A DNA stretch of 64,000 bases, from positions 27,657,668 to 27,721,667 of the forward strand of contig NC_092569.1 in the NCBI RefSeq assembly GCF_037975245.1, written 5' to 3'. This document shows positions 7,240 through 57,930 of the stretch, one piece after another. Each line of letters opens with the position of its first letter. Positions within the stretch are counted from its first letter, which is position 1. The DNA is from Apostichopus japonicus. Taxonomy: Eukaryota > Echinodermata > Holothuroidea > Aspidochirotida > Stichopodidae. The position numbers and the translations under genes were made by a program. The notes below the pieces were generated by a model. That model did not search any database and was not told where the DNA came from. It worked only from the letters and a program-made list of their open reading frames with translations.

Positions 7240-7604
7240 AGCTATAGAGAATATCTCCTAAGCGAATCAAGACTTGTACTAATTACTGTTTGGGTTGATA
7301 TTCCTCGTGAAGACCTCTGTCATATACGCTAAACATGATGGATATGGATCGTGTACCATTCAAGGTTTTAATTACTATTTAATTTGGCTAAAGGGAACGT
7401 AATATAATTATATAAAGTTCAAATTAGTGGAATTTTCTGTGACCGTGGTTGGAGACTTTTGCTACTTGAAATAGCCCTTGATGTCATTATATCTCTACTG
7501 CATCCAATTATTGTTAAACCTGTTCCATCATGTTGATGCTTTTTAATTGCAGAATATGGTAACCTGGCCTACCTACGTATACGTAGAGTTTAGGCAGGTA
7601 TCTT

Positions 7605-10717: not shown

Positions 10718-13700
10718 ATGGGTGCAGTCGGTTCATCGTCACAGGATCTAATACCAACTCCTACACTGATATTTAAAGGTAAGTCATCGAGGTTAAATAA
10801 ACATATCTTATTGAATGGTGTTCAGATGGTCGAATTACAAACATAATGCTACTGTTTATTGTGATTTCATCTATAACTTTTCGGCCTTTTGGCTAAGATC
10901 ATGTGTAGTATCTGTTCCCTTCGGGAATGGTGATGCACACCTGACGATGATCACACAGTCACAGTCCCGATGCAAGGGGACTGGGGCTGAGAGCGGATCA
11001 GTCGTTTGGTTTTCGTGCCCAGGTTCTTTCCTGGGTGACTTTTTCTTAAAAAGTATTTCATCTATAACTTTACTAACGTTCTTATTTTGAGACGTTATGA
11101 GCCTCAAATAAACGAAGAATTTGACATTCGGACTAAACGAAAAGTATCATTTTAAAATTAACTGTAAGTCGACTGTCTTCAAGAATGAAATAATCGCAAA
11201 CATTTCAAAGCCATGATGTTTTTAGATAGCCTCCATGAATGGGGGTATAGTTTGGGTACATTATATTACTTTATATTCAAAGATAGTCTTCCTATTCTAT
11301 TTCATGTGCATTACATTTATCCTCCACAAAATTGGTGTAGTATACCATATTCTAGTGTGCATTTATAAAAATAATGGTGTACTACCGAATATATATTGTG
11401 AATTAAATTAAAAACAATACTAATAATCGAAGCTGCCAATTGCACTGACAACGACACTTCATTGGCATCGACACAATAACACTATGTCGCTCACTTTACA
11501 GAGTAAACGTCAAATTATACAGTTTGTAAGTTTAAACTAGCACTTCAGTCCTTCAAGTTTTGAATCGCTTCTGTCCTTAACCCTCCCCAGCTGACCTCAC
11601 TCCTTTTGTTCCTTATAGGGTACCTCTGCCTTCCCCCTCAACTGTTAGTGCAAGCTTGATTTCAGTTATTTGTTACTCGATTTCAACAGTTGTCCTTGAC
11701 CTGTCGTAATTATAACTTCTCGGGTGTACTCCACACCACTATAGCCTATACGTTATATATTTAGCATCACTTGTTTACGTTGTACAGAGGTGACGTGCGT
11801 GTATAGAACCAATTCCTTTGCCTGACACCATTTTGTTTATTTCTAGTGAACCGTTTCATGACCATTTCCGCACACTTACACGTACTATCTTATTCTTTTC
11901 ACTAGTGCGAGTTGTGCACTCCTTATGTTTAGCCTATCCATAAGGAAGTAGTTGGTGAGAACTATTTCCGGCACAACGTTCTTTGAACAGATGGAGCAAT
12001 TGCCTACATTTGCTTCGAGAATGCAAAGAACTTGAAATTGGTCATAAATGGTATTTTGTTTTAACCGTTAAATACATTATACAGACGGAGATACTGTGCA
12101 TATGTAACAGTAACTTGTAATAACTTGCCTTATGTTTATTCTCTGCCACGTACCAACGTGAAGATGCTGTCAGAATAATGCTTTCAAAAGTGATCAAAAT
12201 GAATGTAAACATTGTTTCGTGGACTACGATGAAACTTTGATATTCGCAAGACAAAAAAGACGAATTCACCTTTTGAAGGGTAGGGGACTGAGTTTATCGT
12301 AGGTCACATGTCAAAGTATATTGAACCATAATGATTTTCATCTACTCCTGTGTTTGGTTATTATTATACAACTTTTACCATGATTGTGGTTCTATGATAT
12401 GTTCGACATAACTGCAAGATTCGGTTAAATTGAGAGAACAGCTTACATTTTACATTCGTTCTAAATCCATAAACTAGGTTGTTCTGGAACTCCACCCACA
12501 TTTCTCGTGACTAGCGTTAGTGAGGAATTTCATTTCTCAATCGATAAATATGTATGAAATGTTTGTTGAAAGTGTAAATTTCAAACAAATTTTCCTGATA
12601 TATCTACTCCTATGATCAACAAGTTTCGCTTATATTGCCATATTTAAATCATATTTTCTAATGGTGGTAAGTTCCTATAAGGTTATATCGATCATGTTGT
12701 TCAGCTTATTTCATACTTTATCTTTACCATCAATACAACGTCATTTTGAAACCTTGCATCTAGTCGTCATATAAGCAGCAAAGCGGAACAACATAGAACA
12801 CAGGTACTACATAAATGTAATTCTTAAAGTTTTTAACCAAAGTAAAAAGTGGATGAGGGCAAAATTCTTTCTAAACGTATATGTGGTGGCGCCCTGACCT
12901 CCATGACAAGAGATGTGTTGACATTTATTGCATTACGTTCTGTAGTATTTCCCTTTAAAAAGCATGTGACAAAATTTTGATATGGTAAAAAATGCATAAA
13001 AACAGTTATAAATGTTATCATTAAGTGATATGGGACATCACATGAAAATTTGGTTTCTTCAGACTCAGGTAAACAATATGCTACTTCAAGACCAATATTC
13101 TACGAGCAGGTTATGGATTCATCCTCATCGGACTTCTCACCATCCTCAGACTACTCAGAATCTTCGTACTTCTCCTCTGAATCATCCTCCTCATCCAGCG
13201 CTCCGGGCCCAAAGTCCGCCTCCGTCACTAAAAAAGGGTCAATCGTAAAATCAACTTCTACTACCTCACCAACTACAAAAGTTAACTCTTCGTCAATTTG
13301 GAATACTACAAAAGCCACAAATTATGGAATTCTCGAAGGTATACGATACATACAATTATTACATTTTCAAAATATGCTCAGTGTTCCTGGGTTTGTTTAT
13401 CATGCATGTTTTATGACTTCTTTAATGGCTAATTCAGTGGCAGACAGTTTAGAATTAAAAAAAAAAAATCTGTCAGGTGAAAACCTCCATCTTCACATGT
13501 ATATCTTGTTCCTAACTATGATCGATTGAATAATTAACGTATTTTGACGTAGATTGACTTTCGCTTCTTCCAGGAAATAGTTCACAGTATAGGTGGTGAG
13601 TCTCTTCAACAAGGTAGATAACCTTCAAAATCCTTTTCTATCCTCTTATAAAAAGGGGAACTTTGTTTTCGTAGAAATATTATTTCCCCTTTTGAACAAT

Positions 13701-27647: not shown

Positions 27648-27848
<201 letters not shown>

Positions 27849-30804: not shown

Positions 30805-31529
<725 letters not shown>

Positions 31530-38183: not shown

Positions 38184-39903
38184 GTTTACTGGTCATTTGC
38201 AATCGTTACATACCTATTACCTTTACAAGATTATAACTATTTGTAATTAATATTAGGCAAATTAGGTATCATTTATGGCAATATTCACTCAGTTCTTCAG
38301 CATGGCAGGTGAAAATTACAGTGTATGATATATTATATGTTGTTGCTTTAGATAAGGACTTGTTCTTCTGCAGTTAAATGTAAACAAAGGCACACAATAA
38401 AAGCTTGTACCTAAGCTCTCTCAATAATGCTACTGAAAATAGGGAATGTGAAAAGCCAACATTGTTCAAATATTGAAAACCTGTTATGTGGGGATATATA
38501 GAGACTATATGTTTGTTATGTTCCTTTGTCATAATGAAAAGATACACCACAGTGACTATGGTAGTGGCCAATGATTATGGTAGGTCAACAGAAATCCAAC
38601 ACTGAGTCCTTGTAAGTATGTGAGTGGCAAGTAGGATCAATACCATTATGTCAATTTGGAATGGATACAACTTCAGTCTGTCTCTCCAAGTAGAACTTGT
38701 TATTGATTTGAACCACAAATTATGAGTGGTTTATAACAGTAATTAAGTGGGTGATGCTCCAGAACGGACTGCTGTTTGTTGTAAGGTTATTTCGAATTTG
38801 AATTTCAAATGGAAAGGTGCATCTTGCTTTGTTATGCCAGTGGCTATACCGCTACGTTGAAGTTTCATAGCCTAGGTAATGCATATTAATACACAAAACT
38901 CTCTACACTTGAGCTGTGCACTGATGTGTTCCATCAAACTAGACACTAACAAAAGAAACAATAGCTATAGGAAATTCTCTGAAATTAGACTATTAACAAT
39001 GCAACTAACCTAGACATGTACTGTTTTATTTGTTCGACTAACGATACTCATTTTAGCAAAAGGTTCACGGCTATAGCCTGTGATTCATACGAATAAATTT
39101 TGCCTTAGATGTAGGCTACAGTAGTTTGTTCGTTGAGCTTGCTACACTCGTGTAAAGCTTACATATTGTGCGATATAGACCTATCGAGTTGTTAACATGC
39201 AAGTGATCTTCCCCACGTATTTAATTTGTGGGTATGATAAAAAAAAAATACTAACATTTTTATCCAGTCGTGCTAAAAATCTTTGAAGATAGAAAGTTGT
39301 CACTTGTTGCATTAAAATGAATTCAAAATTACAGCTTCACATGGAAAACTTTTTCTTACAATTCTGTTGAGTCATTTTTATTCTGCGATGTTGTAATAAC
39401 GTTTTTGGGGGCCAATTTTGTTTCTGTGACGTGTCACGATGTAAATTGGAGCTGTGGCAATGAGTTCCAAAGGGAATCTGCACGAATTGCCAAACAATGT
39501 TTGTCGGTATCAATTCTAAAACGTGAAGTGTGAAGGTTATCAGCTACCTACTGTTATAATTGTAGTTTTCGAAATTGTAGATTTTCATCCACGGAGACAC
39601 ACTGCAAATGACCTCGATGAGACAAATAGAGTCAATGGAACTCAAATACTAAACACAGGCTTATGGAACGGGTCACTGCTTTTAAGACGTGTTGTCAATA
39701 TACAACAGATATACAACTGAGCTCCTTCAAATAGAAAGCCGGACAGATTGTTGGATAGTAACGAGGATTTGTTGCATAGCAGGTCCGACAAGCTTATTCA
39801 GTATCTACTAGTTTTAATAGTAAATACAAATCCCGGCGAATTTATTCCGGCTCATAAACGCACGTCTCCTACACCCAATTCAGTGTATCTTTAAGTATAG
39901 ATC

Positions 39904-41412
39904 ATGGCACAACATCTTGCTTTTGGGATCAGCGTGCTCCTGCTTGCAATTGCAAGTAGTTATTTCATCCAGCAATTCTTCAAATGCCCCGTCGAACACA
40001 GAAGTAACTCTGAGAAAGTCGCAGAAAGAACAAGTTGGCTCTGTTCTGGAAACGTTTCAACGGACAGAGTATGTCGTTTCAAAAACCTGTGCTATTCTTC
40101 TCGACTTGATAAGTTTGTAGCCATTGGAGTTTCATCAACGGAAGAGAAAAGTCTCATGAAGTCGGAGTTAGGAGAAGCTCTTAGCCTAACATCTGTTGTA
40201 GACATGAAATACACATGTGATATTGTATCGTCATCCGCGAGCGCAATTCAAAATGGTAAGGTCAAAATTAAATTCATGGATGGCAAATACTTAATTTTTG
40301 CACGATTTGTGGAGGGAAATCTTGGACATTTCATTCATGATGAAATGATCCCAATTTATCAGACGTTGTTTTTGCATCATAAAGCATGGAATCCAGGCGC
40401 CATTACCCTAATGCTATTTGATAGAGGAGATGTTGGAACATTTCGTGACCTTTACAGCACATTTACTGATAATCCGATATTACAGAAGGTGGACCTGTCA
40501 TTTGAGGAAGACAACACTATCACATGCTTTGAAGATGCCATTGTTGGTCTCTCAAAGGAAACTGTGTGGTTCAAATACGACTTTGTATCTCCAGAAGGAC
40601 CGGTGATGAACACCACCGCAACATGGGAGCACATAAACAACTTCACGGAACATGTCAGAGCTAGATTAGCTATTTATCCCAATTGTAACGGAGACGACTT
40701 TGGTATCATATTCAGGAGAAAGACCAACAGGATCATTGTGAACGAGGATGAAATAATCAGCGCTATATCGGAAGGATTTGGTTTAACAATTATAGCAACT
40801 AGTTTAGAAGAGAATTCCCTCACTGATCTAATCGAAAAGGCCTCTTGTGCAAAGTTGATGATAGGTGTTCACGGCGCACTGCTTATGTTGATGATATTCC
40901 TACAGCCACAGTCTGTTGTCCTCGAACTATTCCCGTATGGAATTATTCCCGACTACAAGTCACAATATAAAACTTTAGCCTCCCTCCCAGGTTCAAACAT
41001 AGAGTACGTACGTTGGAGAAATATGGATGAAACAAACACGGTGACACATCCTGAAAATGAACGTTACTTTGGAGGAATCGCTCACTTGCAAAAGGAAACT
41101 CAAAATAAAATCATAGAAAGTTCCGAGGTGTCTCCAAAGAAACGATTATCTCATCCAGAATGGCGTTTCCGCCTATACCAGGACACGATTGTAGATATTC
41201 CAGCAATAACAAAACTACTTGGGGGAACATATTTGAGAAAAGGCATGCAAACAAGAAAAGACCAGAGTAGATTTTTCGACCTCATTGGTTCGGTGTACGT
41301 ATTTACTGTTAGAACAGTAAAGCAACTGATGAGTAAAACGAGCCTAAATTCACAATTGAATACGAACAGAAAACGAGCTCTCAAGACAACTGTAATTACT
41401 TATGGGAACTAA
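39904..41412 (+). CDS. POMGNT2: POMGNT2-like GT61 glycosyltransferase
   Basis: Intact single-exon ORF of 502 residues. In vertebrates POMGNT2 adds GlcNAc in beta-1,4 linkage to O-mannose on alpha-dystroglycan in the ER. Seen here: an N-terminal signal-anchor helix (about residues 5-24), then the GT61 domain with GNLGHFIHDEMIP (138-150), RKTNRIIVNEDEI (272-284), GVHGALLMLMIFLQP (321-335), VVLELFPYGIIPD (338-350), YKTLASLPG (355-363), NTVTHPENE (378-386) and HPEWRFRLYQDT (417-428). These match POMGNT2 block by block. Sequons occur at N50, N236 and N246. Vertebrate POMGNT2 is about 580 residues and ends in a fibronectin type III domain. This protein ends about 70 residues after the GT domain in a basic tail with no FN3 pattern, so the assignment to POMGNT2 rather than a sister paralogue is uncertain. 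The ORF is intronless, as is the coding region of the vertebrate gene. Confidence 0.85.
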   Translation: MAQHLAFGISVLLLAIASSYFIQQFFKCPVEHRSNSEKVAERTSWLCSGNVSTDRVCRFKNLCYSSRLDKFVAIGVSSTEEKSLMKSELGEALSLTSVVDMKYTCDIVSSSASAIQNGKVKIKFMDGKYLIFARFVEGNLGHFIHDEMIPIYQTLFLHHKAWNPGAITLMLFDRGDVGTFRDLYSTFTDNPILQKVDLSFEEDNTITCFEDAIVGLSKETVWFKYDFVSPEGPVMNTTATWEHINNFTEHVRARLAIYPNCNGDDFGIIFRRKTNRIIVNEDEIISAISEGFGLTIIATSLEENSLTDLIEKASCAKLMIGVHGALLMLMIFLQPQSVVLELFPYGIIPDYKSQYKTLASLPGSNIEYVRWRNMDETNTVTHPENERYFGGIAHLQKETQNKIIESSEVSPKKRLSHPEWRFRLYQDTIVDIPAITKLLGGTYLRKGMQTRKDQSRFFDLIGSVYVFTVRTVKQLMSKTSLNSQLNTNRKRALKTTVITYGN

Positions 41413-44446: not shown

Positions 44447-46487
44447 AAGGTTTTGATATTTTTGTTCTTTTCCTTGATTGATATCCAAGTTCTGTCTTTG
44501 TCTAAATGACGATTACAATAAACACTGGTAAAAGTTTCGCTACGGATCTCAATGCTTATAAGATCGGTATAAAATCCATTAATTGAGAGAGACCGTTTGT
44601 TACAGTAGCTTACCGAACATATATAGTGAAAGTGTCCATGGGTGTAGGTGGGTGTGAAGAAAGGGGACGGGAACTGTCTTGATTTTTGTTGTTTTAAATT
44701 CACCTTGTTCCCATCAGTCAAGGCAAATGTTATTGTTCAGTACCCAAGTAGATTTAAATCTTCACAAAACAGGTTGCTTCAGGTTCACCCTTTGCATAAC
44801 ACATATTATGTTCAAAATTTGTTATCGATAAATTTCATGCATAAGTTAAAATGCAGCTTGAACAAGGGGTTAAAAATACATTTGTATCTGGACTTTGCTT
44901 TTAAGATTATCAAGGTATCAATTTATTGCTTCAACACAATTGAAACGTAGTTTACTTTGCCCCCATTTTGTTTTCTATTAAAAAAAACGGCAGGGTCTGT
45001 TTCAGCTTCCTCTCTTTTCTAATTAGAGCTACATGACATGTACTCCACGAATATTAATAGATCCATGTACTAGCAAGAACAGTAACACATAATAACATTT
45101 AAATTTGGAAATGAAGAATTGACAAACAAATGGCAATTCCAAAGAAGATGTCAGCTTTTGGAGATCAAATGTTTGAAGTGTAGAACTGCAGCAATCACAC
45201 TTTTAACCGGCCTGTCTTGGGTAAAGTTGTATTTACAAGAACAATCTTTTGTACAGAAATTTTTTAATTCCGGTCTGTTATATGTTCGTGCACGTTTTCG
45301 AGCTGCCCACGACGATGAACATATTACACCTTACCAACTGTATCCAACTTATTAATAAAATATGTAAAGTAGCGGTTGAGACTTGCAGGCTAAAATTATA
45401 TCAAACTGTTGTTTCAAGGGTGATATAGCCCAACATAACGATGTAACACTTTCATGAGAATTACAGAAGTAAAAAATTAACTTGAAACTACTATAATGTT
45501 ACAAAAAAAGTTAACAATCCTGTCAATGAGCATACCAGTGTAGGACTGCATAAGGGCACTTCTACTTACCGTAAATGTATGAAAGTGTGGAGAGAAATGG
45601 ATTTTGATGATTGGGATGCACGGGTATCAGAACCCGTTGTAAGCAATGTCATAGTGTGTTGGATACAAACTCATACAATGTTTCCCATAGTAAGTTAACC
45701 CTCAAGCTGATACTCTGCTGTAGGGGGTTTAGTTTAGTTCCCTCACCCAACCCCCTCCCCACCCTTACTTTCAACCTCACACAGATATCAAATATGATAA
45801 GATGATTATGACGACGACGACGACGACAATGACGACGACGACGGCGATGACGGCGATGACGACGACGACGACGACGACGTTGACGACGACGACGACGACG
45901 ACGACGATGATGACGACGATGACGATGACGACGACGACGACGACGGCGATGACGACGACGATGACGACGACGACGATGACGACGACGACGATGACGACGA
46001 CGACGACGATGACGACGATGACGATGACGACGACGACGATGATGATGATGACGATGACGATTTTAATCATTATTATTATAGTAATTTTTAATATTATTAT
46101 TGGGGGCGGGTGGGGGGTTGGATTGCTACCGGATCATCGCCCTTGCCCTGGTGAGCTTCGTCATCTATTATAAGTTAACGTCGATATTTTAATAAAGGCA
46201 ATCGCCTAATCCACAAATACAACTGAAATATAATAACGTAATTATATAATTACTGTCAATATGCGCTCCTGTCATGGTTTGTAATATTGTCTGAATTTGG
46301 ATCGTCTGTTGCCTATGGACTTGTTGAAGTGATATAATACCAGCGTGCAGCATACCCACACCTTTTCGTGTCATTCATGCATATCCCAGAACTGAGATTA
46401 GTGTTTTGTTACGTTGTATGATTTGGATACCATCATTATTAAATAGTGTACTGTCAAACACACACTTACTTGATCAAATAGAATATC
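44447..46487. other. 5' flank of transporter 1
   Basis: No supported gene apart from the microsatellite at 45808-46061. Confidence 0.35.
45808..46061 (+). repeat. (GAC)n/(GACGAT)n microsatellite
   Basis: About 254 bases of GAC triplets with scattered GAT, GGC and TTG. It is CpG-rich, unlike the other trinucleotide arrays in the window. Confidence 0.95.
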
Positions 46488-49400
46488 ATGGCGACATCAA
46501 GTCAAATTGAGAAATTCAAGATTTCTGCAGCTATGACTATAAGGCTCTTCTTCTACTTGGGATCAATGAAATCTTTAAGTGTTATTCTCAATGACACGGT
46601 CAGTCAAACACGAGGATCTATACCATTGGTAGCACTGTCATTCTCTATCTTGCAAGGAGTAGCCTACGTGGCAGGTTTGTTTTTCTCACCAATTTGCCTT
46701 AATTTAATATGCCCAAAAGTGAAACAATGGTTTCATACAACATCCAGGTAAACTCTCTAGCTTGAAAGCAGCGCCGTGTGTATTCATCTTTCTTTTATGC
46801 TTGATTACAGCACCACCTGTCATTCGTTTGATGAAGGTATTTTCTTCTCGGACTATTGTCGTAGTCGGGGGTTTCCTCGTTGGAGCCGGATTCATATGCG
46901 AAGCGTTCTTAGTCAGTAATCTCTGGACACTATATATATCAATTATCATATCCGGTGAGTATCCAGCCTCTGCTGAAACAGTAGTTGAATTATTGAAGAC
47001 ATTTTCATCACCGCCATTGTCGTCATCACAAAAATGGCTACGTCATAGCTGAAGTCATTGATGTCCTAATGGGAGGGGCTGATTTTATTTATAGGTTTGA
47101 TTATCAGTTTAGCCAACAAATGGTTTGTAAAGAGAAAACGACTTTGAATTGAAAAAAGAAAACTGAATGCATGCTGGGTGATGCAGAAAGAAATTGCATG
47201 TAGTTTACGTTAAAGTTTCTTGTTTGGTTGGTCATACTCATTTCTGAGTGAATAGACTTAACATACTTCTTTAAAAGAAGGTGTGTGAAGTATGTAAGGA
47301 TTTAATAACATCCATGTCTAGTTTAGCAAACAAATGGACCGAAAAAAAGGAATTCAGACTAAAAATAAATGATGTACGAGAAATGATGTGAGAGGAAAAG
47401 TCAACCGAATTGTCAACGAGTTTCTTACTTTGCTATCTGTAGTGGGTCATGTCTATCGCAGAATAATATCACAGCAGAATGTTCGATTCCCAACCAAACG
47501 TCTTATAACACTCTTATAACACTCGTTTCACCACAAATAGGTTATCACAAGGATTCATAACTCATTATCCATCTCAATTTTAGAAAAATATCAAGCGAAA
47601 GCTCGACAGAATTCCGGAAAGTCGAAGGGAAACCATAAACATATAATGTTAATGATAAACTGTTAAACGTTTGTAAATTATCTATTTGTATCAATCAAAC
47701 ACCTCTATTGACAAGATGTTCAAATTACGTGTAATGAAAGATAAATAATCCCCAGATATTTCAAGTGAGTACAGGCTGCATGCTATTCTTATTAATCGTT
47801 ACCGTATTACACTTTTTTTGTTATCATGCAGGTGTTGGCTTTGGTCTCAACAATATTCCACTGTACATTGCAATATCAGATAGTTTTGGCGATTCTTTTG
47901 GGACTGTTATGAGCGTCACAGGTTTTTTCGCCAACATTGGCATAGCTGTGGTCCCGCCGTTACTAGAATACTGGCGGGAAAAATACGGATTAGCGGGTGC
48001 TCTCACTCTCTTCGGAGCTTTTATGTGGAACCAAATATTGTCAGGCGTGCTAATTCAGTCAAAGGCCAACACAGAGCACAGCAATGATGATAAGTACAAT
48101 CCAATACGTGACGAAGAAGGCGACGACATTTTACCAAGCCAACCAGAAGAATCAGCAACTGCAGCGAAAAACTCTGGTGGCATCTACCAAGCGATCGTCT
48201 CTCATCCGACAATGCTTTGTCTTTATGCAGCACAGTTTTTTCACATGTTTGTATTTACATCGTGGAGTATCTTTCTTCTACCCTACGGAGTCGAGAAGGG
48301 CTACGAACAAGGAGATGCAGTCTTGCTTTCTACTTTTGGTGGATCTGGAATATTGCTTGGACGGGCTGTCATAATGTTTGTTTTCTACTTGAAATGGCAA
48401 AGTAGTGTGGTCGTGATCGTACTACCGAATGTTCTTCTGATGGCAACCTTCGTATTAACAATATTCACTCAAAAATTCTTTTCACTTTGTTTTGAGTCTT
48501 GCGTCATGGGAATCTGCTTAGGTTATACAACGTCTTGGATGTTCTGCTATGGTAAAGACATAGCTTGCTTGCCTCATTTCAATTCTACTGCAGCTTGGTC
48601 GATGCTATGTTTGGGTTTTGGAGTAACATTCAGCGCTGGAATTTCAGGTGACTAATCGTGTGATCGTTTATTGTTCGACAGACATGTCATGCATGATGCT
48701 ACATTATATAACACCTAATTATATTCCGGCCATTTGATTGGTCAATTGCTCGTCGATTGCATGCAAAATCCGCTCTATTGCACTCTATGAAATAGAACCA
48801 TGTGTTATACTTTTTGATAGCACTTTTTTCAATGGTAAGAGAGCAGAGAAACCTGTCTGTTCAAAACAATCTGTTGCATGAGTGCATTTTACATCCAATT
48901 ATATCCAAATTTGAAGGTGTTGTATAAAACAAATAATAAATGGTTTCCATTCGTGCAATAGTGCCAATATTTCATTCGTTGAAAGATGTAATTTGTTCCA
49001 TTCAACTCGGCTGCGCCTCGTTGAATGGAACATTCCATCTTCCAACTCATGAAATATTTGCACTTTTCCACTCATAACCATTTATTATTTGTATAATAAA
49101 CCACAATAATGACATCATCCCACTGGGTCACTCTCTAACAGTTACCACCAGTTACCTAAAATCTATCAAAGTTGACCTTCTCATTAATCGTAATTCTATC
49201 CACCCGATATATTAACCTTTTGGATACTATATTTCGTTACATCGGTCTCCGTATTTTCCTTGTACTCTGTTCTTTAGGGCGGGAATACGTCAATTTTTAT
49301 TAGGCCCAAAAGCAAATATATGACTGAATCGAAAATAAAGACATCCCGATTAGTGTACTTCGGAGTATCTGTTTAACACGTGCATATAATGTTTAAAGTT

Positions 49401-55200: not shown

Positions 55201-57930
55201 AGTATAGTACAAAGTAGAGGTTAAGTCAGTTGAAACGAGTTTCTTATCTGTTTTAGTGCGTAGGACATACTTAAATGAAGAGACTTTAACGGTCGCCTCT
55301 ATTAATATGGAGTTGGTGAAGGACAGTTTTCATAACTATAGCATAACCATCAAATGGGTTGTCAAAATTGACGTCAGTTTAGACAAATTGATGCCTGGTA
55401 TTTGGCACAAGGCGAAGATTAACATAGTTGACAGTGAGTTTCTTATCTAAGTTAGCAAACCATGTCTAAACGAAAAGATTACAAAATATGCTTATGAATA
55501 GCTATTTCTAGATCATAGGTTTTTGTAACAACATATGTTACGTACATATTAAATATAAATATTGCATTCTGAGATTAAACAAATAGTTTACTTAATATAT
55601 GCATAAAAGCTGGTACAAGATCGCAATGTCTTCCTCTTTCCATGGCAAAACGTAACCGATTATCAGGTACATGGAATATGGCTTATTTCAGTTATATGTT
55701 GTTATGCTGTACTATATATATGTTTGTATGTTTGAATCAATAACGATCATTGTTATACCGGTATGAAGTTAATGATTTACTTCCTGTAATTGCATTTAAA
55801 ATATCTTTTTTTTTGTATCATGTTTATCATATGATTACTCGACAAGCATCTTCACTACCGAAATCCAGGTTTTCAGGATCTAAACATAATAAACCCCAAC
55901 ACCTCATTTTATGTATATAGTTACTTGTTTTTTGCAGGTCTTGGCTTTGGTCTCAACCATATTCCATTGTATATTGCTGTAAGAGAATGTATGTATGTTA
56001 TATGATATATGTTGCATGGTATATGTTGTATGTAGTTATATGTTGTATTTACATGCGAACAATATAATTAACGGTGGAGATAACATCAGATATAGTTTAG
56101 TTAAAACTTTGTTCAACTAGAAGCACATTTCATACATTTCAGACAATTGAACGGTCAAACCATAATAAGTGGGGAAGACAGGAATATTTTCTGAAATTGC
56201 TTTTAGCCGAACATAGTTTTACCCAGGTTTTTGGTCCATTGTGAGGGTCATAAAATGGTTTCATCAAAAACACGAAAGTTTGGTTCTCGAACATGAGTTG
56301 ATTTTATCGGAACAAGACATCAACCCATAATATGATAATTTAAAGGATCATCTAATCTCAGTCTGTGTCCTCTTGGATAAAATATCAAACTGAATGTTTG
56401 AATCAATAACGATCATTGTTATACCGGTATGAAGTTAATGATTTACTTCCTGTAATTGCTTTTAAAATATCTTTTTTTTTGTATCATGTTTATCATATGA
56501 TTACTCGACAAGCATCTTCACTACCGAAATCCAGGTTTTCAGGATCTAAACATAATAAACACCTACACCTCATTTTATCTATATAGTTACTTGTTTTTTT
56601 GCAGGTCTTGGCTTTGGTCTCAGCCATATTCCATTGTATATTGCTGTAAGAGAAGTTTTCGATGATTCTTTTGGGACGGCAATGAGCGCCATATGTTTCA
56701 CGGCCAATATTGGTATGGCTGTGCTCCCGCCGTTACTAGAATACTTGCGGGAAAAATACGGATTAGCGGGTGCACTAACCCTCTTCGGAGCTCTTATGTG
56801 GAACCAGATATTATCAGGGGTGCTTATACAGTCAAGAAAAAGCCAAAGCCATACTGGAAAGGATAGTGACGAAGAAGGCGAAAACTCTTTGAGGGCGCCA
56901 AAGCAACAAAAACTATCGACACCAGCGTATGACTCTGGTGGAATCTATGACGCGATGGTCGCTCATCCGACCATACTTTGTCTATACGCAGCTCAACTTA
57001 CTCACATGTTTTTAAGTAATTCATGTGCCATGTTTCTTATACCATACGCAGTCGAGAAGGGCTACACTCAAGGGGAAGCAGTATTGCTGACCACTTTTGG
57101 CGGTTGTGGAATGTTGCTTGGTCGGGCTGTCATTGGTTTGGTTTTCTATTTGAAATGGCAAAGTCGACTGATCGTGATGACGTCACCGATTGTATTACTA
57201 ATGTCAAACTTGTTACTGGCAATATGCACACATGAATTCGTTTTACTGTGTTTTGCGTCTGGCGTGATTGGATTCTGCTTGGGTTATACATCATCGTGGA
57301 TGTTCAGTTATGGCAAATATATAACATGCTTGCCTCACTTTAATTCTACTGCAGCTTGGTCGATGATATGTATCGGTACTGCGGTGATCTCGAGCGGTCC
57401 ATCATTAGGTAAGTCATTTATTGGTTTATTGGTTGACCTTCGTAAACTTTCGAAAGATTTTTCAAATTCAAACATCATGTTTTGTTCTTCAACTTATTCA
57501 GATAATGTTTGAAGAAAGTATTCATGCCAATAGATAACAATTACACTACAATGTTATGCAAAGCAAGTTTAGTTCCCTTATTCCTTTTTCTACTTCCTAT
57601 TTTAAACAACTCATCGATGTTCTACTACCGAGATGAATATGAGAACACAGCGTTATTTGAAGCTTTGCTCCTTGTTTGCCTTGTTCCATACTTTATATTC
57701 TGTATGATAAAAATATGTTTGCAGATAATTATTTGTTTATTCATTTCTCTCTCTCTCTCTCTCTACTTTTCTCAACTGCGAAAGGTTTTGTTCACGACAT
57801 TCGTGGTACATACGACGACGTGTTCATATTGCTGATACTATGTGCTGCAGTAGTTGCTATCTGTACTGTGGCGTGCATTTCTCTTACAAAAAGAAATCCA
57901 GATTGTGACTACGGAGACAGATTCATATAA
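52218..57930 (+). CDS. SLC16/monocarboxylate-transporter-like MFS protein 2
   Basis: Four exons join in frame: 52218-52386, 54583-54726, 56605-57408 and 57785-57930, giving 420 residues. Introns are GT-AG and all phase 1, exactly as in transporter 1. Exon 2 has the same length (144). Shared segments include [57 protein letters not shown] and [20 protein letters not shown]. The predicted 12-helix fold and the TM6-TM7 loop (rich in Lys, Ser, Glu) are as in its neighbour, but the loop sequence has diverged. The start lies in aagATGGAG; the N-terminus is six residues shorter than in transporter 1. Intron 2 contains a partial copy of exon 3 (see 55728-55987). The genes lie in direct tandem, 2.4 kb apart. 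Substrate unknown. Confidence 0.88.
52549..52801 (+). repeat. Dispersed repeat, copy 2 (transporter 2 intron 1)
   Basis: Same orientation as 50127-50372 but at a non-equivalent gene position, so it was not carried by the gene duplication itself. It is probably a mobile element of unknown type. Confidence 0.7.
52802..54582. other. Rest of transporter 2 intron 1
   Basis: AT-rich intron with a short (AT)n patch near 52870. No other feature is supported. Confidence 0.4.
55728..55987 (+). repeat. Partial duplicate of intron 2 end plus exon 3 start
   Basis: It is nearly identical to 56394-56654 (a handful of differences in 260 bases). It includes a complete polypyrimidine tract and cag acceptor and the first 50 bases of exon 3, then breaks off into unrelated sequence with an in-frame TGA soon after. 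GTAAGA at 55979 could act as a donor. Confidence 0.9.

Follow-up and report, generated by a model that had tools for sequence, protein, structure and literature searches.

The window, meaning the whole stretch of 64 kb that was analysed, contains a single SINE copy. It is a complete insertion at 10873-11054 on the plus strand, in which nt 1-45 of the U2 snRNA are joined to a body of 137 nt, with exact 17-bp repeats on either side. The features of the locus are listed below.

10864-10880, plus strand: left target-site duplication of 17 bp, an exact match to 11055-11071; the 8 bases at its right end coincide with the position of U2 nt 1-8
10873-10917, plus strand: head derived from U2 snRNA, nt 1-45 (RF00004), 36/37 to the Rfam consensus, with a family consensus identical to host U2
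10918-11054, plus strand: SINE body, belonging to no known RNA family in an Rfam search of the body alone
10903-10938, plus strand: predicted junction hairpin, the 5' side holding U2 nt 31-45 and the 3' side the start of the body
10939-11010, plus strand: long central hairpin of the body, predicted from the fold
11017-11036, plus strand: 3' hairpin CCCAGG..CCTGGG, predicted from the fold
11038-11054, plus strand: perfect terminal hairpin of 7 bp, ACTTTTT-CTT-AAAAAGT, with which the element ends on its 3' side, from the fold and the 3'-end matches in the genome
11055-11071, plus strand: right target-site duplication of 17 bp, beginning with ATTTC (ATCTG in the U2 site), from the repeat match

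The head is a near-perfect U2 5' end, as stated in the original prediction. The Rfam U2 model gave 47.4 bits (E 2.5e-6), the only match in the window above the gathering score, and its alignment is genuine for nt 1-45 only, the remainder being forced. Over U2 nt 9-45 (10881-10917), 36 of 37 positions agree with the Rfam consensus, compared with 23 for the next-best 37-mer on either strand of the window. The sole mismatch, A to T at nt 30, is also present in the host U2 genes, to which nt 1-45 of the family consensus are 100% identical. The 'U2' nt 1-8 of the window copy agree at six of eight positions and are located within the left repeat, and the letters there can therefore be target DNA. 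Since the last 8 bases of this repeat coincide with U2 nt 1-8, the 5' junction was formed within the first 8-9 nt of U2, and the window copy has in effect a full-length U2 5' end. A U2 retropseudogene was ruled out because the U2 sequence stops at nt 45 and is followed by a family-specific body.

The predicted flanking repeat, ATTTCATCTATAACTTT, was confirmed as exact over its 17 bp and is found only at these two places in the window. In 200 Markov sequences of 4 kb, exact repeats spaced 150-250 apart reached a length of 13 at most.

The body had been described as unrelated to U2 and as containing three strong hairpins. The first part of this description holds, with no Rfam match and a low fold z, while the whole-element fold gives four hairpins after the U2 stem-loop and not three. 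Relative to shuffled sequences, the body has a fold z of -2.9 and the whole element one of -3.9, compared with +1.9 and -1.3 for the flanks, and the GC content is 0.50 in the element and 0.396 and 0.364 in the flanks. An origin of the body from a known RNA was rejected, as 10918-11054 reached no Rfam family (best E 0.64). The first of the four hairpins is predicted to use U2 nt 31-45 as its 5' side. With the real start of the body, the energy and the number of pairs of this head/body pairing were both equalled by 12 of 3000 random 15-mers from the window and by 6 of 3000 shuffled heads, which is suggestive of a predicted pairing beyond chance in a test picked after the fold was seen. Among 11 diverse copies, the apical loop of the junction hairpin is variable (TTC, TTA, CTC, TTTCGAG and others) and its arms are mostly constant. 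The pairs are likewise mostly kept in these copies, and one pair (45-53) has a two-sided change from CG to TA in one copy; no covariation is claimed, since two neighbouring pairs are broken in that copy. The terminal 7-bp hairpin ends at the insertion point; perfect 7-bp hairpins with a 3-nt loop occur eight times in the 64 kb. With the patterns used for a canonical Sm site and an snRNA 3' box, a weak GGTTTTC was all that was found in the element, with no 3' box, and exact element patterns gave 0 matches in viral and prokaryotic contigs.

Other features of the window include an open frame of 503 codons at 39901-41412 that matches Glyco_transf_61 (E 2.3e-14). Two similar frames at 47738-48655 and 56559-57512, with DNA 75-83% identical over stretches, are transporter-like by eye and gave no Pfam hits. 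Long ATC/GAC trinucleotide arrays, with several frames open, are located at 27668-27848, 30805-31529 and 45810-46060.

The search of the host genome (671,581,487 bp in 35 contigs) shows that the insertion belongs to a family. The exact pattern of the head/body joint had 87 matches genome-wide, and the 3'-end pattern (the last 25 bases, with one position C or T, plus A) had 490; the reversed controls gave 0 in both cases. A search with the element itself gave at least 50 scored matches, of which 45 begin by query base 6 and reach the end; the scored matches are the best candidates only, and the 2539 'first-look candidates' were not taken as copy number. The 39 loci fetched, all outside the window and from the scored search, hold 50 copies, 44 of them full length. 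The family consensus is 190 bp, and 27 of the 45 aligned copies (window included) are identical to this consensus from alignment column 11 on, in a sample that leans young because the copies were chosen by best score. The window copy and one other (L009) lack 8 bp, one GTTTGGTA unit, at about consensus 132-139; this unit is whole or nearly whole in the other 43 aligned copies. The common 3' end of the copies is ..CTTAAAAAGT.

A second sample was made up of the first 19 places of the 3'-end list and was not selected by score. The copies have an identity of 89-98%, and the U2 head was present in 17 of the 19; two of the heads are partial, beginning at nt 20 (L105) and nt 23 (L113), and L097 and L099 are truncated within the body. 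Neither a single copy nor an occurrence of head and body only apart from each other was thus the case, given the 87 exact joints and the 17 headed copies among 19. The joints, the 490 3' ends and the direct repeats private to the individual copies support the original interpretation of the U2-headed element as a SINE family, with a small-RNA-gene head, U2 nt 1-45, that is identical to host U2.

Target-site duplications are found at a majority of the copies with a complete 3' end. An exact direct repeat of at least 8 nt flanks 33 of 50 such copies (window included), and in 15 of the 50 it is at least 15 nt. When flanks were swapped between loci, at least 8 nt were seen in 25 of 2422 pairings, with 13 nt as the longest. 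Nine of the 33 repeat-bearing copies have other copies in the same locus, and part of the repeat can then belong to a neighbour's head. The 17 copies that have no repeat of at least 8 nt include nested and tandem ones as well as the lone copies L013, L014, L018, L019, L021, L032, L039, L041, L044 and L046, among which L018, L019 and L039 have repeats of 6-7 nt. In the second sample, 11 of 19 have an exact repeat of at least 10 nt, a raw count made without the swapped control. These 11 include a site common to L108 and L109, one common to L110 and L111, and the repeat of L098, which is an AT repeat; the repeat of L107 is about 25 nt away from the expected place. The same target repeat was observed at different places in three pairs, L042/L043, L110/L111 and L108/L109, which are either segmental duplications or assembly duplicates.

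The U2 genes of the host gave at least 46 scored matches, and among the matches listed 42 are on contig C16 and 4 on C15. Many of the C16 matches are in tandem units of 645 bp. Four inserts fetched from this array (L078-L081, 5.0-5.3 kb) represent three kinds of LINE. Exo_endo_phos, RVT_1 and zf-RVT were matched by each of the three ORF2s that were tested, with zf-RVT below the Pfam cut-off in L078, and the ORF2 frames of L078-L081 are 1153-1162 codons from stop to stop. On the 3' side of the LINE, U2 begins at nt 38 (ATCTG) in all four, and on the 5' side U2 is retained to nt 25, 30, 30 and 50. The array LINEs have Keno-like features, namely an APE endonuclease with a reverse transcriptase and insertion before U2 nt 38/39.

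SINE copies are located within U2 genes exactly between nt 37 and 38, which is the site of the APE-type LINEs in the same array. The SINE 3' end followed by U2 nt 38-52 is found at seven places genome-wide, six in the C16 array and one on C20. In five of the seven, the copy is preceded by authentic U2 upstream DNA, 120 bp at 100%; three of these are full length (98.9-99.5% to the consensus) and two are truncated or nested. Another, L083, has a truncated body that follows a LINE. The copy on C20 (L089), with 84% identity, is old and had no match to the U2 upstream sequence. Two 5'-truncated bodies (L083, and the one at L088 1336-1510, which is the same as L087 538-712) have ATCTGTTCTTTTCAG, U2 nt 38-52, on both sides and therefore represent a target duplication with insertion between nt 37 and 38. 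This double flank is a mark of retrotransposition for which recombination does not easily account. The duplications seen at this site are 13 nt (LINE L081) and 15 nt (the truncated SINE bodies); an 8-nt duplication of nt 38-45 was not seen at a U2 gene.

The full-length resident copies differ from the consensus by one or two bases, confined to nt 43-50, and one resident copy carries U2 to nt 52/53. No resident copy with the exact dominant joint was found in the assembly, the fourth match (L093) being a U2 gene with another insert. Among the dispersed copies, one in L035 (at 601) shares the resident joint variant C50A, and one in L031 (at 995) retains U2 to nt 50. Two further observations concern U2 genes. 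In L093 (C16:31097048), the gene is broken after nt 45 by a non-SINE insert of about 0.66 kb (GTTCCACTCGGCC..), and U2 resumes at nt 38. In L082 (C15:6478500-6480900), a minus-strand U2 gene with 97.4% identity to the array U2 lies about 1.2 kb from a plus-strand dispersed SINE.

Like R2 SIDEs, the SINE thus occupies multicopy RNA genes at a position that a site-specific LINE also uses. An internal deletion of such a LINE, and with it the body as a piece of the U2-array LINEs, was rejected, since nothing in the body matched the four U2-array LINE loci in a meaningful way. Two of the LINE tails (..GAAAGAAAAGT) agree with the SINE end ..CTTAAAAAGT in the last few letters only, and the third kind agrees less.

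The insertion sites of dispersed copies resemble the U2 site ATCTGTT. The site analysis was based on 49 copies in which no base is missing from the 3' end; these have 46 distinct right flanks. The first base is A in 46 of 46, followed by T or C (27 and 13), C or T (26 and 14) and T (29). The mean likeness to U2 TCTGTTC is 3.07 of 7, slightly inflated by the L031 flank, which is the U2 head of another copy, and is to be compared with 1.78 at 7301 background sites starting with A; 0 of 10,000 permutations were as high. The flanks of the 39 dispersed loci gave no hit to the sequence upstream of U2. Because the sites of dispersed copies are U2-like, the machinery outside U2 is, judging from the flanking bases, likely the same as at U2, with a relaxed specificity. 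That every site begins with A could be due in part to base pairing with the end of the RNA, and not wholly to the endonuclease.

Further copies are found within a few hundred bases in 6 of the 39 loci (L022, L028, L031, L034, L035 and L037), and some of the neighbouring copies are separated by an identical target repeat. In L031, one copy is inserted between nt 37 and 38 of the U2 head of another. The locus L114 (C2:21947300-21949300) contains nine copies within about 1.3 kb, each with ATCCTAT after it; seven of them begin at consensus 56-90 and the last four resemble a doubled pair, a structure that is read as repeated insertion at one site together with some local duplication. The end of the element and the target together, AGT/ATC, resemble the U2 site AGT/ATCTG. 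This likeness suggests that each insertion may create a new good target.

SINE copies were also observed in other small RNA genes. The U4 snRNA genes of a tandem array hold copies (L094, C18:9494000-9500000, and L016). Eight exact joints are located from C18:9489847 to 9508013, of which seven (from 9495120 on) are spaced 1.86 or 3.56 kb apart, and a better U4 match (112.6 bits) is located between two interrupted U4 genes. In L037 (C21:11138835-11140015), the stretch 396-950 holds two tandem SINE copies, with the target repeat ATTACTAGTGATT between them, which pass into a U3 snoRNA match (Rfam 87 bits, 762-950); in our own reading, the sequence that immediately precedes the tandem copies is the 5' part of U3.

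The position of the resident copies offers an explanation of the head, which, with copies between nt 37 and 38 of U2 genes, is the 5' part of the target U2 gene. In an interrupted U2 gene the U2 promoter is followed by the beginning of U2, which in full-length residents extends to about nt 45, then by the body and then by U2 from nt 38 on. A transcript of such a gene would open with two segments that together are exactly the SINE, and the residents are taken as the probable source genes. We infer from this arrangement that U2-resident copies would be transcribed from the U2 promoter and would seed the dispersed ones. The authentic U2 upstream DNA in front of five of the seven copies at the U2 site lends indirect support to the original suggestion that the RNA owes its transcription to snRNA. 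It is probable that the SINE is retrotransposed by a U2-targeting LINE, with U2-resident copies as the source and a relaxed specificity elsewhere. The residents might instead be sinks and not sources, given the lack of the exact dominant joint in the assembly.

The steps would be as follows. The SINE would retrotranspose with the enzymes of a U2-targeting LINE of the type found in the array. By landing in a U2 gene, the body would come to lie downstream of the U2 promoter and of the beginning of U2, and the head would reach nt 45 if nt 38-45 were an 8-nt target duplication, the duplications observed there being 13 and 15 nt. Transcription from the start of U2 itself would yield an RNA consisting of U2 head and body. 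Reverse transcription of this RNA would start at its ..AAAAAGU(A) end, either in U2 genes or at U2-like sites of the form A(T/C)(C/T)T. Dispersed copies, the window copy included, do not have the U2 promoter and are probably dead, so that the family would be sustained by a few U2-resident copies. The balance is somewhat in favour of the fuller cycle, in which a promoterless SINE would regain promoter and head by insertion into U2 genes, the U2-headed RNA would seed both U2 genes and U2-like sites, and the AGT/ATC end would mimic the U2 site and lead to repeated landing of the element next to itself.

The head can also have been acquired in other ways. It can have been added once, by a template switch of the reverse transcriptase from the body RNA to U2 RNA, with transcription from own or flanking promoters and with the U2 genes as target only and not as source. 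Several papers describe LINE enzymes that jump to other templates, snRNAs included, in several lineages (PMC4476161, PMC13174262, PMC2104539), and template jumps to snRNA by such enzymes are also documented in PMC3414825. The distance of one or two bases between the residents and the dominant joint agrees with such a switch too. On the other hand, the L031 copy (at 995) with U2 to nt 50 and the resident with U2 to nt 52/53 are what is expected if heads are taken anew, and the A-box-like and B-box-like matches on the plus strand, which would represent a promoter of its own, are not above the window background. A single template switch is therefore regarded as rather unlikely.

The box matches also bear on the reading as a conventional SINE, driven by Pol III through internal A and B boxes, in which the U2 sequence would be due to chance. 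The head has a slightly A-box-like sequence, TGGCTAAGATC, and the body a slightly B-box-like one, GGTTCTTTCC; there is also a TTTTT near the 3' end. The best A-box score is however 6/8, in a window where 894 sites score 6 and 107 score more, and the best B-box score is 6/10, where 645 sites score 6 and 104 score more. An internal Pol III promoter was rejected because these scores are at background on the plus strand. U2 is moreover a Pol II gene, and U2 nt 1, at which the chimeric RNA would begin if transcribed from U2 genes, is the start of that gene. A Pol III origin is thus very improbable. The exact target-site duplication, the chimeric structure and the one copy in the window would fit yet another origin, a one-off chimeric retropseudogene in which U2 RNA was fused to another cellular RNA in a single event. 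This is refuted by the 87 exact joints, the 490 3' ends and the differing direct repeats; the copy counts rule it out, and its probability is next to nil.

Retrotransposition by a U2-targeting LINE from U2-resident copies is therefore preferred, and it has parallels among known elements. A head derived from U1 or U2, as in the sea-cucumber element, is reportedly found in the crocodilian SINEU, which Kojima is said to have described in 2015 (Genome Biol Evol) as mobilised by Tx1-Mar. Both are multi-copy with an snRNA head on an unrelated body, and SINEU is likewise reported to be moved by a LINE with a target preference, in that case Tx1-Mar. SINEU belongs to another phylum and is said to prefer a Mariner repeat, whereas sea-cucumber copies are found inside U2 genes at a LINE site. 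Residence in U2 offers a direct source of the head, unlike the situation in SINEU.

The R2 SIDEs of Drosophila (Eickbush and Eickbush 2012) are, according to PMC3414825, short elements in 28S genes moved by R2; a U12 snRNA was also found there at the 5' end of an R2. By analogy, R2 SIDEs are the closest working model for the sea-cucumber SINE, both being short non-autonomous elements of multicopy RNA genes, inserted where the LINE specific to the gene inserts. R2 SIDEs arose from R2 by deletion and carry a 5' ribozyme, whereas the comparison with the U2-array LINEs gave no sign of a LINE origin of the sea-cucumber body; the sea-cucumber SINE in addition keeps the 5' part of the RNA gene as its head and has hundreds of copies outside U2 genes. 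The site itself is similar to that of Utopia, for which PMC4640811 gives downstream U2 from nt 39 (in Phytophthora), said to be common to Keno, compared with nt 38/39 here. Crocodilian Utopia, according to the same paper, also inserts at U2-like sites elsewhere. Keno and Utopia are autonomous and the SINE is non-autonomous; Utopia has a restriction-like endonuclease, whereas the array LINEs are of the APE type, as Keno is said to be.

Chimeras of snRNAs with retroelements are described in two papers, U6 with L2 and Mon-1 in platypus (PMC4476161) and U1-U6 with L1 (PMC13174262). The U6/L1 chimeras are independent events, which in most cases do not multiply (PMC13174262). They are similar in having the snRNA 5' of the retroelement and a target-site duplication, and the sea-cucumber chimera differs in that it has multiplied. 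PMC7245038 includes snRNA among the sources of SINE heads and cites Kojima 2015 for it. For A. japonicus, PMC10344927 gives 996 published 'splicing' RNAs, which are no test of the U2-SINE claim. A U2-headed echinoderm SINE, a SINE resident in U2 genes or an snRNA-headed SINE from outside the crocodilians was not found in the titles and abstracts listed by searches of open-licence papers.

SINEs with an snRNA head are thus already known, and a U2-gene-resident one tied to U2-targeting LINEs is new. The class of snRNA-headed SINEs would reach beyond the crocodilians, reportedly the known case. The promoter of a Pol II snRNA lies outside the transcript, so that each new copy should be silent, and to our knowledge it is unexplained how such an snRNA could supply a SINE head. 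Copies in U2 genes at the LINE site would give a concrete answer, with the target supplying both promoter and head, and the birth of SINE heads would become testable within one genome. The U2 genes are at the same time seen to be broken by a parasite, which bears on the functional upkeep of snRNA arrays.
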